Assembly (NCBI GenBank): GCA_003251015.1
Contig: QKIO01000070.1
Location: 1 to 32,165, forward strand
DNA from: Bacteroidales bacterium
Lineage (GTDB): Bacteria; Bacteroidota; Bacteroidia; Bacteroidales; Marinilabiliaceae
DNA length: 32,165 nucleotides
Direction: 5' to 3'
Under the pieces are notes generated by a model that was given only the letters and a program-made list of their open reading frames with translations, made no database searches and was not told the DNA's origin. The position numbers and the translations under genes were made by a program. Shown one piece after another: positions 10,767 to 31,860 of this stretch. Numbering within the stretch: position 1 is the first letter of the stretch; every line of letters starts with the position of its first letter.

Positions 10767-11348
10767 TTACTTTACTTTGGTTGGTTCAACTTCTGCCCAA
10801 TTTTCTTTTCTTGCAATACGGCTTACCTGCATCTCACTAACGCAGAACATACGCGAAATCACATTTTGCCGCACCCCATTTTCAAGCATACCTTTAATGA
10901 TAGACACATCCTTGGCAGATAACTTACTACTTGTAACCACCTTTCCCGCTTTTTTACGAGCTTCTTGCAAGGCCTTATGCATACGTTTATAACTTTGGTC
11001 GCGAGTGACCCACTGCAAATTACTAATGTGGTTATTTTGTTTATTCCAATCAAGATGGATGACTACCTCTTGAAATGGAGCTGTTTTTTCGATAAATGCT
11101 TCTGCGGTGAGTTTATGTACTAGGTAGGAGCGTTTTTTACCATCCACTCGGAGGCTAACATTAAAAAAGCCTTTAATGTTACCTAATTTCACAATACGTC
11201 CTTCAACTTGGTCGTAACAATAACTCTTTACGCGACCATAATTGCTGATTTCATATTTTTTATCTGGGAAAGTCAATTCTTTCCAGATTTCATCATCCAT
11301 CTTTCGCAAATTACGCTCTTTGGTGTTAGTAATTACAATCATAATCAA
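10767..11348 (-). CDS. NUMOD4 / HNH-endonuclease-like protein with C-terminal helix-turn-helix
   Basis: A 193-residue protein resembling free-standing homing-endonuclease-like proteins. A NUMOD4 segment lies at about 20-45 (IWKELTF, YEISNYGRVKS). An HNH_3-type segment follows at about 93-115 (VVIHLDWNKQNNHISNLQWVT), keeping the His, the Asp, the paired Asn and the final NLxW; a Trp stands where Gly is usual after the Asp. The C-terminal part (about 143-185) looks like a helix-turn-helix, with LSAKDVSIIKGMLENG and then ISRMFCVSEMQVSRIARKENW. Internal Met17, just before the NUMOD4 Trp, is an alternative start. No intron, intein or host gene surrounds it. A strong promoter lies about 95 bp upstream. 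It could be a nuclease, a regulator, or both; catalytic activity is not proven by sequence. Confidence 0.85.
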   Translation of the reverse strand: MIMIVITNTKERNLRKMDDEIWKELTFPDKKYEISNYGRVKSYCYDQVEGRIVKLGNIKGFFNVSLRVDGKKRSYLVHKLTAEAFIEKTAPFQEVVIHLDWNKQNNHISNLQWVTRDQSYKRMHKALQEARKKAGKVVTSSKLSAKDVSIIKGMLENGVRQNVISRMFCVSEMQVSRIARKENWAEVEPTKVK

Positions 11349-15434: not shown

Positions 15435-16595
15435 TTAAGAACAAATAGGCAAGGTAAATTTGAATTTACTTCCTTTCCCCACTTCACTTTCTGCCCAAAT
15501 TTGACCATTATGTTTTTCCACAAACTCTTTACAAAGCAACAAACCTAAGCCAGTGCCACTCTCCTTATTAGTACCTGAAGTAGAGCGTATAAAAGCCATG
15601 TTAAAAAGATTTGATAACGATTCGTCATCAATACCCACGCCATTATCAGAAACAACCACCGTTGCTAGACCATTGCATTCATTTGAATAAATAACAATAA
15701 CGCCATTTTCATTGGTAAACTTAATGGCATTGGTGAGCAGATTTTGCAGCACCGTTTTTATCATATTAACATCAATTAATACGCATAAATCTGAGGATAC
15801 AAGCATTTCGATGCGAATACTTTTGATAGTAGCCAATGGGGCTAACAAATCTATAACCTCATCAAATAAAGCAGCCAAATTAGTGGATTTTGGATCAAAA
15901 GGTAGTTTTCCCGATTCGGCACGTACCCACATTAATAAATCCTCTAGTAAACGATAGACTTTATTAGCTGAGCTATGAATGATATTCACTTGATGTTCAA
16001 TCTTATCAACACTATAAGTTCTTACATTATTTTTTAACAAGGACAAGAAACCCAGCAACGAATTAAAGGGATTTTTTAAGTCATGAGCCATAATAGCAAT
16101 AAAACGGTCTTTGTTGGAATTTAGAGTTTGTAATTCCTCATTGGCCGCATTTAAGTTACTCAGAGCTAGTTTCAACTCGTTTTTTTCCTTAACCAAGTCA
16201 TTTTGAAGGGTATTTATAAGGTCATTTAACCGATGTACGGCTAAATTCTGAGTATTCAATGCCTCCGCATCAATCCCACCAACAAGTAAAAGTCCATTAT
16301 CCTTACTGTACACTTGAGCCCATATAGAGGTATTAACCGCATGTAAATTACCAATGGTCAAAAAACCTTCAAACACCTTGTTATCAAGAGGCTCTCGCGC
16401 TGCCAACTGGTCGAATGTAGGATTTATGAATTGATGCTTTACATCACCATGAACCAAACTATCAAACAACGAATTAGAAAAGAGTAACTCACCCTGATGC
16501 GAAATGATGGCAACTGCTATTGAATTACTCTTTACTAGGGCTGCCTTTAATTCATCACACCAATCATCTAGCCCACTTTCATTTGTTACCCTCAT
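15435..16595 (-). CDS. cytosolic PAS-like sensor histidine kinase of a cobalamin-linked operon
   Basis: A 386-residue kinase without membrane segments. Residues about 15-115 look like a PAS-type sensor (AVAIISHQGELLFSNSLFDSL near the start). A coiled coil follows (about 118-160; heptad-like L, N, E and K), then the dimerisation/phosphorylation domain with H171 in MAHDLKNPFNSLLGF. The ATPase domain has N-box N285/N289 (QNLLTNAIKF), G1 DNGVGID (317-323) and G2 GTGLGL (347-352), so all catalytic elements are present. It is the last gene of three; its start lies 3 bp after the stop of the unknown gene upstream. No response regulator is in the operon. Its input is probably the B12-binding protein and the unknown protein encoded with it, which is an inference from the tight spacing. 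Confidence 0.9.
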   Translation of the reverse strand: MRVTNESGLDDWCDELKAALVKSNSIAVAIISHQGELLFSNSLFDSLVHGDVKHQFINPTFDQLAAREPLDNKVFEGFLTIGNLHAVNTSIWAQVYSKDNGLLLVGGIDAEALNTQNLAVHRLNDLINTLQNDLVKEKNELKLALSNLNAANEELQTLNSNKDRFIAIMAHDLKNPFNSLLGFLSLLKNNVRTYSVDKIEHQVNIIHSSANKVYRLLEDLLMWVRAESGKLPFDPKSTNLAALFDEVIDLLAPLATIKSIRIEMLVSSDLCVLIDVNMIKTVLQNLLTNAIKFTNENGVIVIYSNECNGLATVVVSDNGVGIDDESLSNLFNMAFIRSTSGTNKESGTGLGLLLCKEFVEKHNGQIWAESEVGKGSKFKFTLPICS

Positions 16596-16598
16596 GTA

Positions 16599-17060
16599 TT
16601 AGTGCATCGAATTATGAACAGTTAGGTCACTATCTGAAACCACAACAAACATAGGGATATTAACTTGCATCCATTCGTAATAGGCATATACCTCAACATA
16701 AGAATCGGGACTGAGTTCAGATTTTAATAGTTGAATCCAACCGTTAAGTTGAGCTGCCCAATAGTTTGTTGTAAATCCATGACTGCGATAGGCTCTAAAC
16801 ACCCATAGAATAGTTTCCACCAAAACCTCAGGATTTGGGTTGGATAAAATTGAACTGATAAAACGAGCGTGATTTTCGTGATTATCTTTCATCATGCTAA
16901 GATTATTCTCGCCAACTAAACTCACAATATCTTCGCGCTGCAACATGTATAAGTTCATTTTTGCTACCAAGGCATCAATATGTTTTGTGTATTCATTACA
17001 GGCATCGCTACTAACATGAGGCAAACGACTAGCGCTTAATATTAATTTCTCTCTATCCAT
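16599..17060 (-). CDS. uncharacterised helical protein between cobalamin-binding protein and kinase
   Basis: I do not recognise the family of this 153-residue protein. It has no signal peptide or membrane segment and seems all-helical. A conserved-looking core at about 85-135 is rich in aromatics: ILWVFRAYRSHGF, then NYWAAQLNGWIQLL and VYAYYEWM. His residues occur at positions 15, 27, 61, 64 and 94 among others, so a cofactor such as haem cannot be excluded, but no known binding motif is seen. It lacks receiver, HPt and DNA-binding signatures. It starts 2 bp after the stop of the B12-binding gene and ends 3 bp before the kinase start, so all three products are probably made together. It may couple sensor to kinase. 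Confidence 0.85.
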   Translation of the reverse strand: MDREKLILSASRLPHVSSDACNEYTKHIDALVAKMNLYMLQREDIVSLVGENNLSMMKDNHENHARFISSILSNPNPEVLVETILWVFRAYRSHGFTTNYWAAQLNGWIQLLKSELSPDSYVEVYAYYEWMQVNIPMFVVVSDSDLTVHNSMH

Positions 17061-17062
17061 AA

Positions 17063-17710
17063 CTATGATATTTGTTTAATTAACACATCTACTTGCTCAA
17101 TATTTTGTTTAAAAATAACCCTTTCATATTGACTTAACTCCTCTACTCCACCTTTATTAAAGGCCTGTCCTCCAACTAAAATAGGCAACATGGGCAACTC
17201 CTTTTGAAACAACTCTAGCATTTTCTCTAGTTGTGGAAAGTGAAAATAAAGACTCATTGAAATAGCTAGTAAATCAGGAGTGTGAAGTTTAATAAATCGT
17301 AACAGCTCGTTGGTTGGCGTGTTCGACCCAAGGAAGAAGGTAGTCCATCCGTTAAGTTCAAACACATCACTTATCATTTTTACGCCAATTTGGTGAAGTT
17401 CATTTTCAACACAAGCCACTACAACCTTTTTGTTGATGGCTTGTGGAAAAATAAGTTTTGCATAAAACTCATTGAGAATGGATTGCGAAATGGCAGAAGC
17501 CAAATGTTCGGTAGCCACACTGATTTTATTATATTCCCATAATTCGCCGATTTTATACAACGCATCCTTGATAATGTTTTCATACAAAAAGTACAAAGAT
17601 TGATGCTGGTCGTAATAAGTCCACGCGATTTGCGAACATTTATCACGCTGTCCATTCAACAGCGCGGCTAAAAACTCTTCTTTCGCCTGATTTTCGGAAA
17701 TGATAGACAT
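17063..17710 (-). CDS. cobalamin (B12)-binding protein of CarH/LitR photoreceptor type, without DNA-binding domain
   Basis: A 215-residue cytosolic protein. The helical cap domain (about 10-85) contains W58, nine residues, then E68-H69: the Wx9EH motif that marks adenosylcobalamin-based light sensors such as CarH. The Rossmann-like B12-binding domain (about 92-215) has E104-L-H106-x-x-G109 (a DxHxxG variant with Glu for Asp, H106 being the expected lower axial ligand), S151/S153, and GG at 180-181. Unlike CarH it has no MerR-type HTH. The residue after W58 is Glu rather than the CarH His that forms the light-state adduct, so photochemistry may differ. ATG at 17710 is preferred over a GTG two codons upstream. 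It is first in an operon with an unknown protein and a histidine kinase. A methyltransferase corrinoid protein is the main alternative, but no methyltransferase is nearby. Confidence 0.88.
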   Translation of the reverse strand: MSIISENQAKEEFLAALLNGQRDKCSQIAWTYYDQHQSLYFLYENIIKDALYKIGELWEYNKISVATEHLASAISQSILNEFYAKLIFPQAINKKVVVACVENELHQIGVKMISDVFELNGWTTFFLGSNTPTNELLRFIKLHTPDLLAISMSLYFHFPQLEKMLELFQKELPMLPILVGGQAFNKGGVEELSQYERVIFKQNIEQVDVLIKQIS

Positions 17711-17724
17711 ACACACTTGCTGTT

Positions 17725-19981: not shown

Positions 19982-21097
19982 ATGGTGCAGGATAGAATAT
20001 CACGACTTATTCAACAAAAGGAATTTTCGCTTGAAGAACTTTGTTTCTTAATTGCTTTAGAAGGAGCCGACAGAGATTTCTTTCTACGAGAAACAGGCAA
20101 ACACTACATCCAAACTCTAGGTAAGAAAGTGTATTTTAGAGGATTAGTGGAGTTTTCGAATTATTGCACCAAAGACTGTTATTATTGTGGCATACGCAAA
20201 AGCAACAGCCAAGCCGAACGTTATGACATTGACGACGAACAAATTGTGGAAGCTGCCCGTTTTGCACATCAACACAACTATGGTTCCTTGGTGTTACAAT
20301 CGGGCGAACGCCATGATACCCAATTCGCCAAACGCATCACCCAACTATTAAGAAAGATTAAGGAAGCAACAAACGGCGAGCTGGGAATTACCATTTCGTT
20401 AGGCGAACAAAGCGAAGACACCTACCGTGAGTGGTTTAACGCAGGTGCGCACCGCTACCTACTTCGTATCGAATCGTCTAACAAAGAATTATACTACAAG
20501 ATACATCCTGAGGATGAAAATCATAATTTTGAGTTACGTCTAAATTGCATTCAAACCCTTCAGAAAGTGGGATATCAAACAGGTACTGGCGTCATGATAG
20601 GACTTCCTTTTCAAAGCATTGAAGACTTAGCCAGGGACTTACTCTTTTTTAAAGAGTTAAACATTGACATGGTGGGGATGGGGCCATTTATAGAACACTC
20701 TAACACACCTCTTTACCAATACAAAAACCAATTATGGCCTTTACAAAGACGATTTGATGTGGCATTAAATATGATTGCGACCTTACGTTTATTAATGCCT
20801 GACATCAATATTGCGGCTGCAACTGCTTTGCAAGCCATAGACCCTATGGGACGAGAAAAAGCACTGCGTTATGGCGCCAACATTATCATGCCCAACATCA
20901 CCCCTACCCTTCACCGCAAAGATTACACCCTTTACGAAAACAAACCGTGCACCGACGAAGGCGCTGATGATTGCTCGAACTGTATGAATGTGCGCGTTTG
21001 TATGAATGTGCGCGTTGAAATGGCGGGACGTGAGATAGGACTAAATGAATGGGGTGATTCAAATCACTTTTTCAATCGTCAACACACAAAACAATAA
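19982..21097 (+). CDS. hydE: [FeFe]-hydrogenase maturation radical SAM enzyme HydE
   Basis: A 371-residue radical SAM TIM-barrel enzyme. HydE acts with HydG and HydF to build the diiron part of the [FeFe]-hydrogenase H-cluster, where it processes the HydG product. The SAM cluster cysteines are C62, C66 and C69 (NYCTKDCYYCGIRKSN). GEQSEDTYREWFNAGAHRYLLRIESSN and GTGVMIGLPFQSIEDLARDL are typical of HydE. The auxiliary cluster motif CxxxxxxxCxxC of HydE is present as C323, C331 and C334. Just after it, six residues (CMNVRV) are repeated exactly, giving an extra C340. No hydF, hydG or hydrogenase gene is in the window. zwf follows after 50 bp. PylB and BioB relatives are less likely because of the auxiliary cysteines and length. 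Confidence 0.9.
   Translation: MVQDRISRLIQQKEFSLEELCFLIALEGADRDFFLRETGKHYIQTLGKKVYFRGLVEFSNYCTKDCYYCGIRKSNSQAERYDIDDEQIVEAARFAHQHNYGSLVLQSGERHDTQFAKRITQLLRKIKEATNGELGITISLGEQSEDTYREWFNAGAHRYLLRIESSNKELYYKIHPEDENHNFELRLNCIQTLQKVGYQTGTGVMIGLPFQSIEDLARDLLFFKELNIDMVGMGPFIEHSNTPLYQYKNQLWPLQRRFDVALNMIATLRLLMPDINIAAATALQAIDPMGREKALRYGANIIMPNITPTLHRKDYTLYENKPCTDEGADDCSNCMNVRVCMNVRVEMAGREIGLNEWGDSNHFFNRQHTKQ
20981..21016 (+). repeat. 18-bp perfect tandem duplication inside hydE
   Basis: Two identical 18-base units lie at 20981-20998 and 20999-21016, encoding CMNVRV twice in frame. They are adjacent to the auxiliary iron-sulphur cluster cysteines of HydE. Exact identity at the DNA level points to a recent duplication or to an assembly error. 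Confidence 0.9.
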
Positions 21098-23707: not shown

Positions 23708-24394
23708 ATGACCAAAGTACTAATCGTAGAAGACGATCTTGACTTAAACAACAACATTCGTGACGCTTTGCGTGATGAACAATTAATAGTGGATTGTGCT
23801 TTTGATGGAAAAATAGCTAGCAAATTCTTAAAAAAAGAATCCTACGATTGCGTTATACTAGATATAAATCTACCAGGTAAAAATGGATATGAGGTGTGTA
23901 GTCTATTTAGACAATACAACACGTCCACGCCAGTATTAATGTTAACTGCATTTCATGAACTCGACGACAAAGTACAAGGCTTCGAAAGTGGTGCTGACGA
24001 CTATTTAACAAAACCTTTTTACATGAAAGAACTCTTATTAAGGATTCAGTCACTTATAAGACGTAAACTAAATGTAACCAACGAAGTTAATCAAGATATT
24101 AATATCTTAGGTGATATTGTAATCAACACATCCATCCAAAAGGTTTCGAGACAAGGAACAGAAGTGATGCTTACCCCTCGGGAATATCAAATTTTATTAA
24201 GACTTATAAAAGCGAATGGCGATTTAGTGCCTAAAAAAGAACTAATAAAAGAAATATGGGGTACTAATATAGATGCTAACACCAACACCATTGAAGTTTA
24301 TATCAACTTCTTACGTAAGAAAATTGATAAACCATTTGGTAAAGATTCTATAAAAACAAAAATTGGGTACGGTTATTACTTTGAAGATAAATGA
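23708..24394 (+). CDS. OmpR-family response regulator
   Basis: A 228-residue two-component regulator. The receiver domain (about 1-120) has the acidic pair D9/D10, the phospho-acceptor D52 in ILDINLPGKNG, T80 in MLTAF, and K102 in TKPF. The winged-helix DNA-binding domain (about 130-226) shows LTPREYQILLRL and the recognition helix region NTIEVYINFLRKKID, ending in IGYGYYF. It overlaps the following kinase gene by four bases (ATGA), so the two are co-translated. The efflux genes 1.5 kb downstream are the likely targets, with phased repeats in front of them. One copy of the same 7-mer in the inverse direction (CTTAAAA, 23625-23631) occurs upstream of this gene. Confidence 0.95.
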   Translation: MTKVLIVEDDLDLNNNIRDALRDEQLIVDCAFDGKIASKFLKKESYDCVILDINLPGKNGYEVCSLFRQYNTSTPVLMLTAFHELDDKVQGFESGADDYLTKPFYMKELLLRIQSLIRRKLNVTNEVNQDINILGDIVINTSIQKVSRQGTEVMLTPREYQILLRLIKANGDLVPKKELIKEIWGTNIDANTNTIEVYINFLRKKIDKPFGKDSIKTKIGYGYYFEDK

Positions 24395-25770
24395 GTATAA
24401 AATTTAAAATATTACTATACTTCTCTACACTTACAATTACATTGGTGGGTGCTGTACTTGTGTTTGTATATACCTTATTTTACGACTTCCGCGATCAATC
24501 ATTTAGAGAAGAACAAACTGTAGAAATTGAAACCACACTAAACCTATTAACTGTACAAAAAAAAATTGATCAAACGATGGTTGAATCCATAGATTCAACG
24601 ACAATCAACAACTTGTATGATGAAAAATTACTCATTTTTGATGATACAAAAAAACCAATATACTCAAGTATTGGAACTACTGAAATTCCAGACTTCAAAG
24701 AAATATTAAACCAATTATCAGATACAACACCTCGCATAGACCGCAAAGACAATCAATACGATGTGGTTGGAGTATATGTTATTAAAGAAGGTAAAGTGCA
24801 TTATGGCATTTGTAAGGCATTTGATGATTCTGGATATTTAATGACAAACTACTTACGTAAAGTGCTTATATTTTGTTTTTTAGGAATATCAATAACCTTA
24901 TTCATACTCCTATATTATTTATCAGGTCAGATAACCCAGTCAATTTTACTTGTTACCAAACAAATAAAGAACTACGATTTTGGCTTAAATGCAGCACCAA
25001 TACAATGTAAAAATAATAGAGACGAAATTGCTCTACTCGTCAAGCGCTTTAATGAACTGATGGACCGTATGAATCAGGCTTATCTGTTTCAAAAACATGC
25101 TGTTCATCACATCTCACACGAACTCAAAACGCCAATCTCTGTGCTGGTTAGTAATTTTGAACGAATGGAGAAAACATCAGATATTATAGAGTTACAAAAC
25201 CTAATAAAACATCAGAAAGTAGATACCAAGAGCTTGGGTGACATTATTAATTCGTTGTTAGAAATAGCCAAATTAGAATCAGGTAAACCAATAGAACAGA
25301 TAGATATACGTATTGATGAACTACTTTTTGATTTATCACAAGAGCTTTTGAATATTAATAAAGACTTTAATTATTTGATTGAATTTGGAAGCGAAGTTGA
25401 TGATTCAAACATGTTAATTATATGCGGCAATTTAAAGTTATTAAAGGCAGCGTTTAGTAATTTGATGATAAACTGTGCTAAGTATAGTACAATCCCATCT
25501 GCTAAAATAATCATCAAACCCCATAATGTTGGAATAGAAATAGTGTTTACCAACGTGGGCGAAATTATTTTAACGGATGAACAGATCTATTTATTCCAAC
25601 ATTTTTTCAGGGGCGAAAACAGTAAGGGCGTGCGAGGATTTGGATTAGGTCTTGTATTAGTTCATAAGATAATAACTCTACACAATGGCCTTATATCTTA
25701 TAAAGTCGAAGGTACTGATAAAAACATATTTACGATTGACCTACCCTATCAAGTAAAACACCAAAAGTAG
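24391..25770 (+). CDS. membrane sensor histidine kinase
   Basis: A 459-residue partner of the regulator just upstream. Two membrane helices (about 8-30 and 157-177) enclose a periplasmic sensor of about 125 residues. A HAMP-like linker follows (about 178-230), then the phosphorylation domain with H243 in HHISHELKTPIS and the ATPase domain. The N-box is FSNLMINCAKYS (N361), the F-box FQHFFRGEN and G2 GFGLGL. The G1 box is degenerate: TNVGEI stands where DxGxGI is usual, so the adenine-contacting Asp is replaced. I recall this Asn-type G1 from related sensor kinases, so loss of activity is not implied. The periplasmic sensing domain has no recognisable fold by eye. It probably detects envelope stress or a compound exported by the RND system downstream. 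Confidence 0.93.
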   Translation: MSIKFKILLYFSTLTITLVGAVLVFVYTLFYDFRDQSFREEQTVEIETTLNLLTVQKKIDQTMVESIDSTTINNLYDEKLLIFDDTKKPIYSSIGTTEIPDFKEILNQLSDTTPRIDRKDNQYDVVGVYVIKEGKVHYGICKAFDDSGYLMTNYLRKVLIFCFLGISITLFILLYYLSGQITQSILLVTKQIKNYDFGLNAAPIQCKNNRDEIALLVKRFNELMDRMNQAYLFQKHAVHHISHELKTPISVLVSNFERMEKTSDIIELQNLIKHQKVDTKSLGDIINSLLEIAKLESGKPIEQIDIRIDELLFDLSQELLNINKDFNYLIEFGSEVDDSNMLIICGNLKLLKAAFSNLMINCAKYSTIPSAKIIIKPHNVGIEIVFTNVGEIILTDEQIYLFQHFFRGENSKGVRGFGLGLVLVHKIITLHNGLISYKVEGTDKNIFTIDLPYQVKHQK

Positions 25771-25856
25771 TGTATTTTCAAAAAACCACTACCAATAGAA
25801 ATCACCACACTCAATAACCTACAAAGCGCAATCCTTGTACCTCAACAAAAGCGTCA

Positions 25857-25895
25857 TTTTAAGTTAATATTTAAGTGTTTTAAGCCTATTTTAAG
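25857..25895 (+). repeat. four phased TTTTAAG-type direct repeats upstream of the efflux operon
   Basis: TTTTAAG occurs at 25857-25863, 25878-25884 and 25889-25895, and ATTTAAG at 25869-25875. Starts are 12, 9 and 11 bp apart, about one helical turn each, which is how OmpR-family regulators bind direct repeats. The array ends 46 bp before the adaptor gene, in the gap after the two-component genes. It is probably the regulator's binding site; this is inference. Confidence 0.5.
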
Positions 25896-25941
25896 GTCAA
25901 TACCTACAACTTTACACACACAATAATTAAAGTTTTAGGTT

Positions 25942-27129
25942 ATGAAATTCAAAAAAAAAGGAGACTTTACTGTTTTTATAGGAGCACTTTTTATACTGAT
26001 TAGTCTTGTTACACTCACCGCTTGCGAAAGTAAAGTGAAAGAAACCAAAGAGTCCGAAAATTTCCCAGTGATGACCCCTCTTATTACTGATGCAACTATA
26101 AATCAAGAATATGTTGCAGAAATTCAAGCAATGCAAAACGTAGAATTACGATCGAGGGTTAAAGGGTATCTTGACAAAATAGAAGTTGATGAAGGACAGC
26201 TTGTTAAAGCTGGACAAGTGCTGTTTTGCATCAGTAAAAACGAGTACCAAGAGGCATTAACAAAAGCTAACGCCGAATTAATTAGTGCACTCGCCAGCGT
26301 TAAGACAGCAGAATTAGATGTTGAAAACACACAAACTCTGGTTGACAAAAATGTAGTATCTAAAACAGAACTTAGTATTGCTCAAGCAAAACTTGAGGCG
26401 CTTAAAGCACAAGTGGATGAAGCAAGTGCCGACAAAGCTGCTGCACAATTGAATCTATCATATGCCACTATAAAAGCACCATTTGAAGGTATCGTAAACC
26501 GTTTGCCTTTTAAAGTAGGGAGTTTAATTGATGAAGGGACTTTACTTACTACCATTTCTGATGACAAACAGATGTATGCGTATTTTAATGTATCGGAGAA
26601 CGATTATCTGAATTTACTAAAAGATAATGAACAGATAAAAAGCAAAGAGGCTACCCTTATTTTAGCAAACAATCAACCATATCCCTATGCCGGTATGATT
26701 GAAACTGTTGATGGAGAAATAGATAAAAGCACAGGAAATATTTCTTTCAGAGCCCGTTTTCAGAATCCTAACTTGCTATTATTACACGGAGGAACAGGCA
26801 AAATTGTACTCACAAAAACTATTAAAAACGCCATCGTTATCCCTCAAAAATCAACATTTGATGTTCAAGACAAAACATACATATACCTGGTGGATAAGGA
26901 CAACATTGTGCAATTACGAAACATAAAAGTGTTATGCCGTCTGAACGATTCTTACATCATTAATTCTGGAATAACTGGAAGTGATCGTTTTATCTACGAA
27001 GGCATTCAACTTGTGAAAGTTGGAGATAAAATTATCCCTAGTCAAATCAAACAAGACCTAATGGCTGAACAAGAATCAAAAGACACTTTAACAATAATTA
27101 ATAAAATTGAAAAACCAGCTTTTAGGTAA
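25942..27129 (+). CDS. RND efflux periplasmic adaptor (membrane fusion protein), lipoprotein
   Basis: A 395-residue HlyD/AcrA-family adaptor that bridges the RND pump and the outer-membrane channel. It has a lipoprotein signal with lipobox LTAC and C28 as the lipidated residue. Family parts are seen in order: the first lipoyl half (about 65-95; RVKGYLDKIEVDEGQLVKAGQVLF), a helical hairpin (about 98-165, Ala/Glu/Leu-rich), the second lipoyl half (about 170-195; ATIKAPFEGIVNRLPFKVGSLIDEG) and a beta-barrel (about 195-280). The membrane-proximal domain with AIVIPQKSTFDVQDKTYIYLV follows. It is first of three efflux genes, with the pump gene after 62 bp. Substrate is unknown. Probably controlled by the two-component system upstream. 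Confidence 0.95.
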   Translation: MKFKKKGDFTVFIGALFILISLVTLTACESKVKETKESENFPVMTPLITDATINQEYVAEIQAMQNVELRSRVKGYLDKIEVDEGQLVKAGQVLFCISKNEYQEALTKANAELISALASVKTAELDVENTQTLVDKNVVSKTELSIAQAKLEALKAQVDEASADKAAAQLNLSYATIKAPFEGIVNRLPFKVGSLIDEGTLLTTISDDKQMYAYFNVSENDYLNLLKDNEQIKSKEATLILANNQPYPYAGMIETVDGEIDKSTGNISFRARFQNPNLLLLHGGTGKIVLTKTIKNAIVIPQKSTFDVQDKTYIYLVDKDNIVQLRNIKVLCRLNDSYIINSGITGSDRFIYEGIQLVKVGDKIIPSQIKQDLMAEQESKDTLTIINKIEKPAFR

Positions 27130-27191
27130 CCACCATCAAAAAAGCCCATACATAAGCACACATAGTATTTACACACTTTGTTAAAACTATT

Positions 27192-30100
27192 ATGACTTCA
27201 AAATTCATACATAGACCAGTACTATCAATTGTGATTTCTCTGATGATTTTACTATTGGGTATTTTGTCATTATTCCAACTACCATTATCACTATTTCCAA
27301 GTGTAGCGCCACCGAGGGTAAATATTACTGTTGAATACCCAGGTGCTAATGCTGAAACTGTTATGAAAGCAGCTGTAAAACCCATTGAGAAGGCTATCAA
27401 CGGCGTTCCAGGCATGAAATATCTGGTTTCAGATGCTGGAAATGATGGCGAGGGTGTCATTGAAGTATTATTTGACACAGGGACCAACGCCGAAATTGCA
27501 GCCGTAAACGTACAAAACAGGGTTGCTACCATCATGAGCCGTTTGCCTGTGGATGTTGTCAAGAATGGTGTGAAAATAAGCAAAGAGGAGGATCAAATGT
27601 TGATGTATCTTAATGTTTTCAGTAATGACACAACCTTAAGCACCGAGTTTATATACAATTTTGCAGATATAAACATCTTACCCGAACTAAAACGCATAAA
27701 GGGAGTTGGTTACGCTGACATTCTAGGAGACCGTGAATACGCCATGCGAATCTGGTTAAACCCAGAGAAGATGTTAAGCTATAAAGTTTCTCCACAAGAA
27801 GTACTTGATGCCTTAAGCCAGAATAATGTTGAGGCGGCTCCTGGAAAAGTGGGTGATGCATCCGACAAACTTGATAATTCCATGGAATATGTCATAAAAT
27901 ATACCGGGAAATTTAATACAAATGATGAATATGCTGAAATTCCTATTAAGGCTAACGAGAATGGGCAGATACTAAAACTTAAAGATATAGCTACGATTGA
28001 ATTTGGCTCTATGTTCTACAACGTGGAATCACGGTTCAACGGAAACCATTCGGCAGCGATTGTGCTTAAACAATTGGCTGGAACAAATGCGCGTGACGTT
28101 ATTAAGGCCGTGAAGACACGCATGGAGCAAATTAAAGGCGCTCGCTTTTTAAATGGAATGAACTATGAAGTTAGTTATGATGTATCTCGTTTTTTAGATG
28201 CATCAGTACACGAAGTGTTAAAAACACTTTTAGAAGCATTCTTACTGGTTTCATTAGTTGTTTTTCTGTTTTTACAAGATTTCAGATCTACTCTAATACC
28301 CGCAATTGCAGTACCGGTATCGCTCATTGGAACGTTCTTTTTTATGCAATTATTTGGTTTTAGCCTAAACCTAATTACCCTTTTTGCTTTAGTATTGGCG
28401 ATTGGAATTGTGGTTGACAATGCCATTGTTGTGGTTGAGGCTGTACATGCTAAAATGGAGCACTTTCATATTGGCCCAATGAAAGCTACCGAGAAGGCCA
28501 TGAAAGAGATTAGTGGAGCTATTATTGCCATTACGTTAGTTATGACAGCCGTATTTATTCCAGTATCGTTTTTAGATGGCCCAACAGGCATATTTTACAG
28601 GCAATTTTCTGTAACCATGGCCATAGCTATTGTACTTTCAGGTATTATAGCATTAACACTTACGCCAGCTTTATGCAGCCTATTATTACGAAGTCAACAT
28701 AGTCAAAAGGCAGAAAAGAAAGGGTTGACAGCCGCATTTTTTAGAGGATTTAATCATTGGTATGAAGGCATTGAAATCAAATACCAAAAAACACTTAACT
28801 TAATTATCAATCGAAAATCGGTAACTTTTGGTGTAATTCTAATTTTCTGTTTAGCTATAGGCTTGTTAAACACACAATTACTGTCAGGGTTTATACCAAA
28901 CGAAGATCAAGGTACTTTTTACATAACCATTTCAACACCTCCGGGCTCATCGCTAGAGCGCACAAAACAGGTTGTTAATCAGGTAAATAAATTATGTCAA
29001 AATGTAGATGCTATAGAATCAGTATCTTCAAATGCTGGTAATAATATTCTTACTGATGGTGAAGGGGGTAATTATGCATCGTGCCTCATCAATTTAAAAA
29101 ACTGGGAGGATCGTAAGCAAACGACCGATCAAGTGATGGATGAAATTAAAGAAAAAGCTAAAGTTATCAAGGATGCTCGATTAGAATATTTTCCACCACC
29201 AGCAATTCCTGGTTATGGCAATGCTAGTGGATTTGAACTTCGCTTATTAGATCAAACAGGAAGTGGTGATTATAAAAAATTGGGTGAAGTAACCAACGAG
29301 TTTGTAGCTCAGCTAAGTAAACGACCAGAGGTTACTGAGGCCTACACCATTTTTGACGCTACTTTTCCACAATACCTACTACATGTTGATTTGGATAAAG
29401 CCATACAAAAAGGTATTACGGTTGATAAGGCCATGAGTACACTCCAAACTCTTTTGGGTAGTGATTATGCGACTGATTTTATTAAATATGGACAAGTATA
29501 TAGAGTAATGGTACAGGCATCCCCTGAGTTTAGAAATAAACCAGAGGACGTGTTAAAACTATATGTAAAAAACGACAAAGGAGAAATGATTCCATATTCA
29601 GCTTTTGCTTCCATCGAACATGTGTATGGAATGGATGACATAACTCACTTTAACCTTTACCCCTCGGCCGAAATTAGTGGCGATGCGGCAAAAGGATATA
29701 GTAGTGGAAGTGCCATTAACGCAATTTTAGAAACCGCAAAAACAAAATTACCTAAGGGGTATGAGATAGACTGGGCAGGTATCTCGCGAGACGAAGTAAG
29801 CGTTGGAAATGGAGCTATCATTATCTTCATCATCTGCCTGCTTTTTGTTTACCTCTTACTATCAGCCCAATACGAGAGTTTTCTATTGCCATTTCCTGTG
29901 ATACTATCATTACCAACAGGCATTTTTGGAGCCTTTTTACTCCTTTACACAATGGGATTAGAAAACAATATCTATGCACAAATTGCCATGGTGATGTTGA
30001 TTGGTCTTTTAGGTAAAAATGCCATCTTAATTATTGAATTTGCAACCATGAAACAGCGAGAAGGCAAAACACCCACGGAGGCTGCTATAGAAGGGGCAAA

Positions 30101-30350
30101 ATTAAGATTACGTCCTATTCTAATGACCTCAATGGCATTTGTGGCTGGTATGATACCACTATTGTTTAAAACTGGTGCTGGCGCTGTTAGCAATCGAACC
30201 ATTGGTGCGGCTGCCGCTGGAGGTATGTTATTTGGAACCATATTTGGCTTATTAGTAATTCCTGGTTTATATGTAGTTTTTGCTACTTGGGCGTTAAAAA
30301 TAAGTAACAAGCATCGAAAAGAAGAAGTAGCATTAACGGAAGAATTTTAA
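27192..30350 (+). CDS. RND efflux pump, inner-membrane subunit (HAE-1/AcrB family)
   Basis: A 1052-residue proton-driven pump. It has the normal layout: TM1 (about 10-30), a large periplasmic loop, TM2-6, a hydrophilic spacer, TM7, a second periplasmic loop and TM8-12. The family start FIHRPVLSIVISLMILLLG is typical. In TM4, VVDNAIVVVE places D409 and N410 where AcrB has D407 and D408, so one of the two proton-relay aspartates is Asn. The TM10 lysine is present in LLGKNAILIIEFA. The periplasmic segments include ISTPPGSSLERT and QYESFLLPF, both common in the family. Substrates are probably lipophilic compounds but cannot be told from sequence. It lies between its adaptor and channel genes. Confidence 0.96.
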   Translation: MTSKFIHRPVLSIVISLMILLLGILSLFQLPLSLFPSVAPPRVNITVEYPGANAETVMKAAVKPIEKAINGVPGMKYLVSDAGNDGEGVIEVLFDTGTNAEIAAVNVQNRVATIMSRLPVDVVKNGVKISKEEDQMLMYLNVFSNDTTLSTEFIYNFADINILPELKRIKGVGYADILGDREYAMRIWLNPEKMLSYKVSPQEVLDALSQNNVEAAPGKVGDASDKLDNSMEYVIKYTGKFNTNDEYAEIPIKANENGQILKLKDIATIEFGSMFYNVESRFNGNHSAAIVLKQLAGTNARDVIKAVKTRMEQIKGARFLNGMNYEVSYDVSRFLDASVHEVLKTLLEAFLLVSLVVFLFLQDFRSTLIPAIAVPVSLIGTFFFMQLFGFSLNLITLFALVLAIGIVVDNAIVVVEAVHAKMEHFHIGPMKATEKAMKEISGAIIAITLVMTAVFIPVSFLDGPTGIFYRQFSVTMAIAIVLSGIIALTLTPALCSLLLRSQHSQKAEKKGLTAAFFRGFNHWYEGIEIKYQKTLNLIINRKSVTFGVILIFCLAIGLLNTQLLSGFIPNEDQGTFYITISTPPGSSLERTKQVVNQVNKLCQNVDAIESVSSNAGNNILTDGEGGNYASCLINLKNWEDRKQTTDQVMDEIKEKAKVIKDARLEYFPPPAIPGYGNASGFELRLLDQTGSGDYKKLGEVTNEFVAQLSKRPEVTEAYTIFDATFPQYLLHVDLDKAIQKGITVDKAMSTLQTLLGSDYATDFIKYGQVYRVMVQASPEFRNKPEDVLKLYVKNDKGEMIPYSAFASIEHVYGMDDITHFNLYPSAEISGDAAKGYSSGSAINAILETAKTKLPKGYEIDWAGISRDEVSVGNGAIIIFIICLLFVYLLLSAQYESFLLPFPVILSLPTGIFGAFLLLYTMGLENNIYAQIAMVMLIGLLGKNAILIIEFATMKQREGKTPTEAAIEGAKLRLRPILMTSMAFVAGMIPLLFKTGAGAVSNRTIGAAAAGGMLFGTIFGLLVIPGLYVVFATWALKISNKHRKEEVALTEEF

Positions 30351-30382
30351 TGTTGATTTAAATATTCTCTTAAAAATAGGGT

Positions 30383-30408
30383 GTTTGATACTAACATAGG
30401 TATCAAAC
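30383..30408 (+). terminator. hairpin between RND pump and outer-membrane channel genes
   Basis: A 9-bp perfect stem (GTTTGATAC at 30383-30391 with GTATCAAAC at 30400-30408) encloses an 8-base loop, in the 79-bp gap before the channel gene. No U-run follows, so it is more likely an RNA-processing or attenuation element that tunes expression of the last gene than a full terminator. Confidence 0.4.
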
Positions 30409-30429
30409 CTCTATTCTAAATAAAATAAT

Positions 30430-31860
30430 ATGAAAACAAGACATAGCTTACAATTAGCATTAATATTATCTATAACTTGGATATTAAGCAGTTGTAACAG
30501 CACCAAAAACATCGATACACAAACACATCTTACCCTGCCATCTTCATTTGGTCAGACAAAGGATACGAGCTCCATAGCTCAACTATCATGGAAAGATTTT
30601 TTCAACGACCCTAGTTTGATTGCCTTAATAGACACAGCTTTAAAAAACAACCTAGATCTGAAGATTACGCAACAACAAGTTGAAATAGCACATGCCAACT
30701 TAAAACAAGCTAAGGGATCACTTATTCCATCGTTAGGACTTAATGTAAATTCAGGGAAAAATAAAAGTGGACAATACACACCAACTTGGGCTGGTAATAA
30801 TGGAACGGTTATTTATAACAATCAAACCATTCCAAACATAGTAGCTAATTATAATTTTGGATTACAAAGTAGTTGGGAGTTGGATACTTGGGGTCGTTTG
30901 CGCAACCAGAAAAAAGCAGCTGCAGCAAACTATCTATCTAGTAACGAGGGTCATCACTTCGCAACCACCAACCTTGTTGCCAGCATTGCAACCAACTATT
31001 ATCAACTACTTTCGCTAGATAAACAGCTAAGTATTATTGATAACTCCATTATGCTACAAGACAGCGCCTTAACAATTGTTCTTATTCAAAAACAAGCAGG
31101 AAGAGCAAATATCTTAGGCGTAAAGCAGTTTGAAGCGCAAATTCTTAACTCAAAAAAATTAAGAATAGAAACTTTACAGAGTATTGAACAATGTGAGAAT
31201 AATCTTAACTTACTATTAGGCCGCTTCCCACAACCTATAAGACGACAGGAAAATGCCTTTAAAGCAGACACAACTCAACTATTAAACCATGGGATACCTA
31301 GTTATTTACTTGAAAACAGACCAGATATTAGACAGGCCGAATTTGAGGTCATTGCAGCCAATGCTAATCTAAAATCAGCAAAAGCATCCTTCTTACCAAC
31401 ACTTAACATAACAGGCTCTATAGGTTATGAGGCCTTTAACCCTTCATTAATTACTTTGCCAGAATCATTGGCCTTTAATTTATTAGGTGGATTAACAGCT
31501 CCACTCCTAAATCACAATGCAATAAGAACTGCTTTTAGCACTTCTAAAGCCTATCAAATAGAGGCGCTTTGTCATTACGAAAAAACCATACTGAATGGCT
31601 TTACAGAGGTGCGAAATCAATTATCTGGATTAAAATACAACACCGAGATTTTAAATCTAAAAAGCCAAGAAGTAACATTACTCAACCAGTCCATTTCTTC
31701 ATCAATTGAATTATTTAAAACAGGAAGAGCTAACTACCTAGAAATCTTAACTATGCAAGAAAACTTACTTCAGGCAAACATAGAATTAACTATAGCTCAG
31801 CAGAATAGATTCAATACTATTATTGGGTTATATCAAGCCTTAGGTGGTGGTTGGAGATAA
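30430..31860 (+). CDS. outer-membrane efflux channel lipoprotein (TolC/OprM/NodT family)
   Basis: A 476-residue outer-membrane factor that completes the tripartite pump. The lipoprotein signal has lipobox LSSC, with C22 lipidated. Two repeated OEP halves follow (about 55-245 and 265-470). Family motifs include WKDFFNDPSLIALIDTALKNNLDLKI, then SWELDTWGRLRNQKKAA, LLGRFP, and LENRPDIRQAEFEVIAANANLKSAKASFLPTLNITGS, which are highly typical of the OprM/NodT group. Late helices end in IELFKTGRANYLEILTMQENLL. It forms a trimeric beta barrel and alpha tunnel. It follows the pump gene by 79 bp and ends the operon. The next 255 bp hold no evident gene or clear terminator. Confidence 0.95.
   Translation: MKTRHSLQLALILSITWILSSCNSTKNIDTQTHLTLPSSFGQTKDTSSIAQLSWKDFFNDPSLIALIDTALKNNLDLKITQQQVEIAHANLKQAKGSLIPSLGLNVNSGKNKSGQYTPTWAGNNGTVIYNNQTIPNIVANYNFGLQSSWELDTWGRLRNQKKAAAANYLSSNEGHHFATTNLVASIATNYYQLLSLDKQLSIIDNSIMLQDSALTIVLIQKQAGRANILGVKQFEAQILNSKKLRIETLQSIEQCENNLNLLLGRFPQPIRRQENAFKADTTQLLNHGIPSYLLENRPDIRQAEFEVIAANANLKSAKASFLPTLNITGSIGYEAFNPSLITLPESLAFNLLGGLTAPLLNHNAIRTAFSTSKAYQIEALCHYEKTILNGFTEVRNQLSGLKYNTEILNLKSQEVTLLNQSISSSIELFKTGRANYLEILTMQENLLQANIELTIAQQNRFNTIIGLYQALGGGWR

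Follow-up and report, generated by a model that had tools for sequence, protein, structure and literature searches.

A candidate photocobilin-like receptor split into two proteins and linked to a PAS histidine kinase in Bacteroidales and other bacteria

The 32,165-nucleotide contig QKIO01000070.1 of a Bacteroidales bacterium of the Marinilabiliaceae (assembly GCA_003251015.1), here called the window, is one entire contig out of 389 in a draft genome of 3.1 Mb with 94.7% completeness and encodes on its reverse strand a B12-binding protein, a 153-amino-acid (aa) protein and a sensor histidine kinase in immediate succession. Comparison across genomes shows that genes for a CarH/photocobilin-type B12 protein, for a diverged photoglobin and for a PAS-HisKA-HATPase kinase are kept together in one orientation as a conserved cassette, and that relatives carry the B12 and photoglobin parts as one protein beside a related kinase. 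We consider it probable that the operon encodes a photocobilin-like receptor which is split in trans into two proteins and coupled to the PAS histidine kinase. If true, this would be a natural in-trans photocobilin linked to two-component signaling and hence a B12-to-phosphorelay route present in several phyla, and optogenetics could make direct use of a histidine kinase that is controlled by B12 and has separable parts.

An initial annotation of this DNA, made from its letters alone, had proposed that a B12 sensor without DNA-binding domain signals through the kinase, with a protein of unknown nature encoded in between. The coordinates and open reading frames (ORFs) of this layout are confirmed, including the gaps of 3 bp (16596-16598, between the kinase and 153-aa ORFs) and 2 bp (17061-17062, between the 153-aa ORF and the B12 gene) as well as the residues W58, E68, H69, E104, H106 and G109 of the B12 protein. 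The features of the cassette are as follows, with B12 protein motifs numbered from the ATG (an alternative GTG at 17716 would add two aa):

17063-17710, (-): B12 protein gene with ATG start, first gene of the cassette; stand-alone sensor with four-helix cap and Rossmann domain
17504-17539, (-): W58-x9-E68-H69 (WEYNKISVATEH), adenosyl-pocket signature of B12 photoreceptors
17384-17401, (-): E104-x-H106-x-x-G109 (ELHQIG), lower-axial His motif
16599-17060, (-): gene of the 153-aa globin-fold protein ("MID"), a diverged stand-alone photoglobin by fold and family profile
16869-16883, (-): invariant helix motif N60-H61-x-N63-H64, with N60 at the site of the biliverdin Asp (Asp270 of SasPcob)
16803-16805, (-): W86, counterpart of the bilin D-ring Trp (Trp296 of SasPcob), Trp in 74 of 75 family members
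15435-16595, (-): gene of the 386-aa sensor histidine kinase with PAS-like N-terminus, long helix, HisKA and HATPase_c; apparently soluble
16083-16085, (-): H171, predicted phospho-acceptor, invariant in 39 kinases
15540-15647, (-): ATP-binding G boxes from DNGVGID to GTGLGL, by sequence and conservation

Linkage and components of the cassette

The 153-aa protein occurs in 11 of 100 own and related genomes, and B12 and kinase ORFs adjoin it at all ten loci outside the window, one of which (L017) holds only a fragment. A scan of a genome collection of 84,980 species with a pattern from the family alignment returned 147 loci, 80 of which were analyzed. Their carriers are mostly Bacteroidota, joined by Thermodesulfobacteriota, Lentisphaerota, Planctomycetota, Spirochaetota and Ignavibacteriota, and most are metagenome-assembled genomes (MAGs), while the Lentisphaerota carrier is an isolate, Oligosphaera ethanolica. 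Cultured carriers also include Alkaliflexus imshenetskii (L052), Marinilabilia rubra (L091) and Lutibacter oricola (L036). All three genes are present at 77 of the 80 loci, usually in the order B12-globin-kinase (64 loci) but also as B12-kinase-globin (nine) or globin-B12-kinase (one, L060), and the B12-globin pair is flanked on both sides by kinases at three (L055, L062 and L078). Beyond the cassette, no neighbor family recurs at more than five of the 80 loci, as counted from BLAST-linked ORF families in neighborhoods of varying length. Among 294 genomes of the order, the stand-alone B12 family (E ≤1e-45) was found in 16 and the 153-aa protein in 15, which leaves 14 genomes with both, two with the B12 protein only, one with the 153-aa protein only and 277 with neither (Fisher p = 6e-21, uncorrected for relatedness).

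The linkage of the three genes is far beyond chance, and their co-occurrence, proposed as a check in the initial annotation, is borne out in both data sets. Exceptions exist nonetheless: one globin is an orphan (L029), one lies at a contig end (L095), and four genomes (G008, G023, G082 and G330) keep the B12 and kinase genes without the globin. Two loci are decayed, one with a truncated globin and a broken kinase (L076) and one with a globin and a kinase fragment (L167 in G246), both with no B12 gene beside them. The B12-kinase pairing itself spans several phyla and, as the four globin-less genomes illustrate, persists without the middle gene.

In a Pfam scan of the three proteins, the B12 protein matched PF02607 (B12-binding_2, 2.5e-11) and PF02310 (B12-binding, 1.4e-15), the kinase matched HisKA and HATPase_c, and the 153-aa protein matched nothing. 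By sequence, the solved structures closest to the B12 protein are the photocobilins 8j2x, 8j2w and 8j2y (E 1.6e-21 to 6.5e-18), followed by 8jbs, methionine synthases and CarH (the latter at 7e-7). CarH is also its top NCBIfam match, though far under the cut-off, and MtgC/MtaC match weakly. Across 65 aligned B12 proteins (66 length-filtered sequences minus L030 and L093, plus the window), W58, E68, H69, E104 and G109 show no variation, and at least 90% have H106. The Wx9EH motif was found at 76 of the 77 loci whose B12 match exceeds 200 bits (not at L021, which a contig end truncates), and ExHxxG in 76 of 77 B12 homologues (exception L072). Of the corresponding residues of photocobilins, the Trp packs against the ribose of the adenosyl group, Glu and His hold the dimer together and a His coordinates cobalt; Wx9EH has been published as the hallmark of light-responsive B12 domains (PMC10979010). 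The window protein thus has the cap and Rossmann domain, the Wx9/10EH and the E/DxH of a photocobilin B12 module, whereas the Pfam scan shows no MerR-type DNA-binding domain as in CarH/LitR. This agrees with the earlier description of a B12 sensor with CarH-type signature that lacks DNA binding.

The source genome has five other PF02310 loci, four of which (L001, L002, L003 and L006) have no Wx9EH in any of the six frames. The fifth, L005, carries it in a CarH-type protein with MerR helix-turn-helix (HTH) and B12 domains. Because this is the only locus besides the cassette with the motif, Wx9EH would mark exclusively photoreceptor-type B12 modules in this genome. The L005 gene (L005:949-1836(+); genome G000, contig C80) is a second candidate B12 photoreceptor, for which CarH is the top NCBIfam model (96 bits, cut-off 400). 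The source genome can probably make adenosylcobalamin because it encodes an adenosyltransferase of the Cob_adeno_trans type (PF01923).

The kinase has the complete catalytic core claimed for it, a HisKA domain with its His and a HATPase_c domain with G boxes, in which H171, D317, G319, G321, G349 and G351 are invariant and T348 is conserved in at least 90% of 39 kinases (38 selected at >340 bits and 365-425 aa, plus the window). Its N-terminal ca. 110 residues (alignment of 33 sequences plus the window) are modeled as a PAS-like fold that leads into a long helix, with a predicted local distance difference test (pLDDT) score of 88, and the structure matches of this part are PAS proteins (best Foldseek E 8.8e-4, template-modeling (TM) score to the query ca. 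0.4). There is no strongly hydrophobic stretch (top 19-residue Kyte-Doolittle mean 1.5), and the kinase is apparently soluble, in keeping with the initial annotation. In a search with one sequence, a receiver-domain protein lies no more than 3.5 kb away at 29 of the 80 loci; the response regulator in the window (23708-24394) precedes a kinase of its own (24391-25770). At seven loci (L063, L068, L073, L081, L085, L087 and L092), the order is B12-globin-kinase-kinase, the second kinase being ca. 393-398 aa long with an apparent receiver domain. Such cassettes suggest a kinase-to-kinase relay.

The middle protein and its fused relatives

That the 153-aa protein falls into no Pfam family is still true, but it can be identified: it is a diverged photoglobin, i.e., a relative of the biliverdin-binding globin of photocobilins. 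Nothing convincing came up for it in Pfam, NCBIfam or PDB sequence searches, and across 75 family members no Pfam family was matched by more than four (best E overall 0.004), so the globin assignment rests on the fold, a profile from fused relatives and the gene context. The 75 sequences comprise the window and 74 others (80 reduced to 76 at 90% identity, with the short L056 and L076 dropped), and several rows begin at an inner Met. An AlphaFold2 model from this alignment is all-helical with a mean pLDDT of 94.6. Its first 26 Foldseek rows are phycobiliproteins (7sc7, TM 0.66), with globin-coupled sensors and then smURFP further down and no row at E ≤0.001. In VIA-align, the DosC globin (Z 13.7), smURFP (13.6), a Bordetella sensor (13.3) and phycobiliproteins (up to 12.9) ranked above photocobilin 8j2x (11.8, residues 16-141), though helical models can reach a Z of ca. 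13 through a common helix arrangement alone.

A search of relatives with the B12 profile revealed proteins of ca. 350 aa in which a phycobilisome-like domain at the N-terminus is joined to a B12 domain at the C-terminus, and PF00502 matches three of them at 1.1e-8 (L114, over the cut-off), 3.8e-4 (L112) and 0.028 (L113, both under it). Judged by this architecture, these fused proteins are photocobilins with the globin in front. Nine loci of this form were examined (G072, G083, G090, G157, G213, G233, G237, G245 and G322, with an in-frame stop in G233), and a kinase gene lies directly downstream at eight of them; G213 has none, and the one in G072 is cut by the contig end. We built a hidden Markov model (HMM) from eight fused photoglobin domains, without any split globin, and its scores for the split family have a median of 13.8 bits and reach 28.1. 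Among the 75 members, 61 scored better than every control, i.e., 158 unrelated neighbor ORFs and 75 reversed sequences (best control 9.0 bits). Aligning the split family with three and then eight fused photoglobins in hhalign gave probabilities of 61% and 60% (P 8e-5 and 8.9e-5), which is suggestive on its own but not decisive. In the split family, N60, N63 and H64 are present in 75 of 75 members and H61 in 74, F67, Y91, F96 and Y100 are strongly invariant and W101 nearly so.

As far as gene content tells, fused and split forms are alternatives. None of the eight fused-form genomes among the 294 has a split globin, and four genera (g52, g99, g113 and g119) each include a fused-form species and at least one split-globin species. 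In a tree of 90 B12 domains, whose bootstrap is not fully settled, 80 rows, which comprise the split and globin-less forms, cluster with 100/100 support, separately from the fused ones. The sole exception is L057, which groups with the fused forms. At this locus (L057:452-2902), a fused-type B12 protein comes without its photoglobin, and downstream of the kinase gene lies a stand-alone globin of split type; three forward frames upstream of the B12 gene hold no photoglobin remnant. The separate globin would stand in for the missing domain in an apparent domain-to-gene swap, so that fold matches, HMM scores and this locus all point to a photoglobin as partner of the B12 protein. The four globin-less loci do not cluster together in the tree (four changes, at least two of them forced by well-supported branches), and one of them, L098, pairs with the globin-bearing L032 (100/99). 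The globin has therefore probably been lost more than once while the B12 protein and kinase stayed. Fused, split and globin-less versions provide built-in natural experiments on what the globin contributes.

Mechanism, ligand and alternative explanations

In the mechanism that we propose, the B12 protein would bind adenosylcobalamin and dimerize head-to-tail like CarH and photocobilins. The photoglobin would pack on it like its fused counterpart and either modulate it or connect it with the PAS domain. Removal of the adenosyl group by light, or a changed supply of adenosylcobalamin, would then alter the complex and shift autophosphorylation at H171, probably via the PAS domain, with the phosphate acceptor encoded outside the cassette. 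Because only the globin is missing in some genomes, the B12-kinase pair may be the core and the globin a modulator. We favor light as the stimulus because of the B12 signature and the photoglobin partner.

Several observations weigh against a split photocobilin coupled to a kinase. The cassette encodes no response regulator. The kinases of split and fused forms are only moderately related: with the split-kinase profile, the seven uncut fused-form kinases score 275-290 bits, and though six other kinases at the fused loci reach just 135-176 bits, the second kinase in G245 scores 307. The domain-to-gene swap of L057 is seen on one metagenome contig. With the photoglobin HMM, the window globin itself reaches 8.6 bits and falls short of the best control, which makes its assignment dependent on its family and fold. 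Finally, the Asp that contacts biliverdin in photocobilins is replaced by Asn: the family alignment has Asn at residue 60 in all 75 members, and the corresponding HMM column holds Asn in 67, Asp in six and a gap in two, compared to Asp in seven of eight fused relatives. The SasPcob numbering was anchored through a low-scoring stretch of the alignment of L113 with 8j2x plus PMC10979010 (query 52 = chain position 268; W75 = position 291, taken as Trp296 with an offset of 5; D49 = Asp270). The published photocobilin AbPcob has His at this site (PMC10979010), so an equivalent of Asp270 is not strictly required.

The Asn also bears on the ligand. Heme oxygenase was found in none of 13, 294 and 41 genomes (partly overlapping sets, the last being the carriers behind 42 of the 80 split loci, less that of L037) in a search that recovered it in three of 14 control genomes and did not extend to other heme-degrading families. 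Together with N60, this argues against a classical biliverdin photoreceptor and raises the question of what fills the photoglobin in such organisms. The HutW/ChuW model matches all 23 genomes and all 14 controls, with none of the 23 over the cut-off, and most of these matches are probably HemN/HemW-type paralogues; only two neighbors of fused genes stand out (256 and 268 bits, cut-off 400). These are radical SAM genes, with anaerobic heme-degrading ChuW/HutW as best NCBIfam model, just upstream of the fused photocobilin and kinase genes and on the same strand at two of the nine fused loci:

L174:4396-5691 / L179:5396-6691, (-): radical SAM gene in G090
L119:2585-3934 / L182:3378-4727, (-): radical SAM gene in G237

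No such gene was seen among the ORFs of the 80 split loci. The two neighbors, both in genomes for which the heme oxygenase search came up empty, hint at an oxygen-free bilin source for the fused-type photoreceptor. By extension, the Asn-type photoglobin might hold a linear tetrapyrrole other than biliverdin that is made anaerobically (e.g., anaerobilin from a ChuW/HutW-like radical SAM enzyme) and, jointly with the B12 protein, tune the kinase. The complex would then sense light or B12/redox state with two chromophores and depend on neither oxygen nor heme oxygenase. We regard this idea as speculative and rather unlikely.

The cassette could also respond to something other than light, with the B12 protein sensing adenosylcobalamin availability or redox state and the kinase adjusting metabolism to its adenosylcobalamin loading. 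The negative search for heme oxygenase would fit, as would a Pfam scan of 18 window genes that showed no photolyase or carotenoid family and the lack of any further family at more than five of the 80 loci; many carriers are MAGs whose titles suggest sediment, spring or groundwater, i.e., perhaps dark habitats. However, the motif of light-responsive B12 domains is invariant (PMC10979010), the B12 protein is paired with a photoglobin relative, a MerR-B12 regulator of CarH type is encoded in the genome as well, and an Rfam scan of the window found no cobalamin riboswitch or other match. A sensor of B12 status is a credible option, though not the one we would expect. We hold much the same view of the split globin as an adaptor that has lost its chromophore and connects the B12 protein with the PAS domain, comparable to RsbR, whose N-terminal non-heme globin shows that a globin fold can signal without heme. 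The loss of the biliverdin Asp, the lack of a heme oxygenase match in 294 genomes of the order and 41 carriers, and the four genomes that manage without the globin speak for such an adaptor, while conservation of N60, N63, H64, F67, Y91, F96, Y100, W86 and W101, two of them at bilin-contact positions, suggests a retained ligand site.

Two further explanations appear weaker. The globin could bind heme and sense gas or redox state like a globin-coupled sensor, with the B12 protein as a second input, and the globin-coupled sensors of DosC and Bordetella (13.7 and 13.3) are indeed among its best VIA-align matches, tied with smURFP (13.6). Yet its sequence homology is to photoglobins, and His61 and His64 align to their RDAxYH helix, which does not appear to match the proximal-His position of globins; we consider heme sensing improbable. 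Both Pfam domains of the B12 protein are also present in corrinoid proteins of methyltransferases, and the weak MtgC/MtaC matches could be taken to mean a corrinoid-enzyme fragment next to an unrelated kinase. We rejected this candidate, which seems very hard to sustain: CarH is the top NCBIfam match, albeit far under the cut-off, the nearest structures are photocobilins, Wx9EH is missing at the four other B12-domain loci mentioned above, and the neighborhoods show linkage to the kinase at 77 of 80 loci with no further gene family at more than five.

Elsewhere in the window, 10767-11348(-) is a free-standing, homing-endonuclease-like ORF of NUMOD4 plus HNH endonuclease type (Pfam), and 19982-21097(+) encodes a radical SAM protein with a weak BATS match that is possibly, as a guess, HydE/BioB-like. 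At 23708-31860(+), genes for a response regulator, histidine kinase, membrane fusion protein, AcrB-type pump and outer-membrane factor follow each other as a regulated RND efflux operon.

Relation to known systems

We found no paper on a split B12/photoglobin/kinase operon in the openly licensed literature, a search that left most subscription journals outside, so that a prior description is possible. Photoglobin-B12 neighborhoods with signaling domains were reportedly noted by Schneider et al. in 2022, who are said to have predicted that such pairs act in signal transduction. We know of no photoglobin in the AerR/CrtJ system. There, a cobalamin-binding photoreceptor acts in trans on a partner regulator as proposed here, but this partner is a transcription factor and not a kinase, and we liken the two by description, not sequence (PMC6199135). 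With AerR acting on CrtJ and with photocobilins that control a diguanylate cyclase (PMC6199135, PMC10979010), the initial annotation had overstated the novelty of B12 signaling without fused DNA binding. The B12 partners given by SignatureFinder are HTH, diguanylate cyclase, GAF, MEDS and biliverdin domains, and the word "kinase" is absent from its main text (PMC11796333).

Comparison with CarH/LitR, as drawn initially, remains valid for the cap and Rossmann module and the signature residues, although the cassette protein lacks their MerR-type DNA-binding domain and would act through partners. It is incomplete, since the 153-aa protein is a photoglobin relative and photocobilins, not CarH alone, are therefore the right comparison. 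BBAG-2 clusters resemble the cassette in joining a stand-alone bilin-binding globin with a B12-binding protein in three genes, the third of which encodes a bilin reductase instead of a kinase (PMC10151467; again likened by description, not sequence). Heme oxygenase lies inside some of these clusters and elsewhere for others, and the N-terminal globin of RsbR is named there as outgroup (PMC10151467). For the cassette, the heme oxygenase search of the three genome sets given above found none, and it did not cover bilin reductase.

Photocobilins, photoglobins and the pairing of separate globin and B12 proteins in BBAG-2 clusters are thus already known (PMC10979010, PMC10151467). Like the photocobilins SasPcob and AbDPcob, the cassette combines a CarH-like B12 domain with Wx9/10EH and E/DxH and a photoglobin; photocobilin output is controlled by light through an enzyme domain, a diguanylate cyclase (PMC10979010). 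It departs from them in that B12 and globin domains are encoded by two separate ORFs and not as one polypeptide, that Asn takes the place of the biliverdin Asp, and that the output would be a separate histidine kinase.

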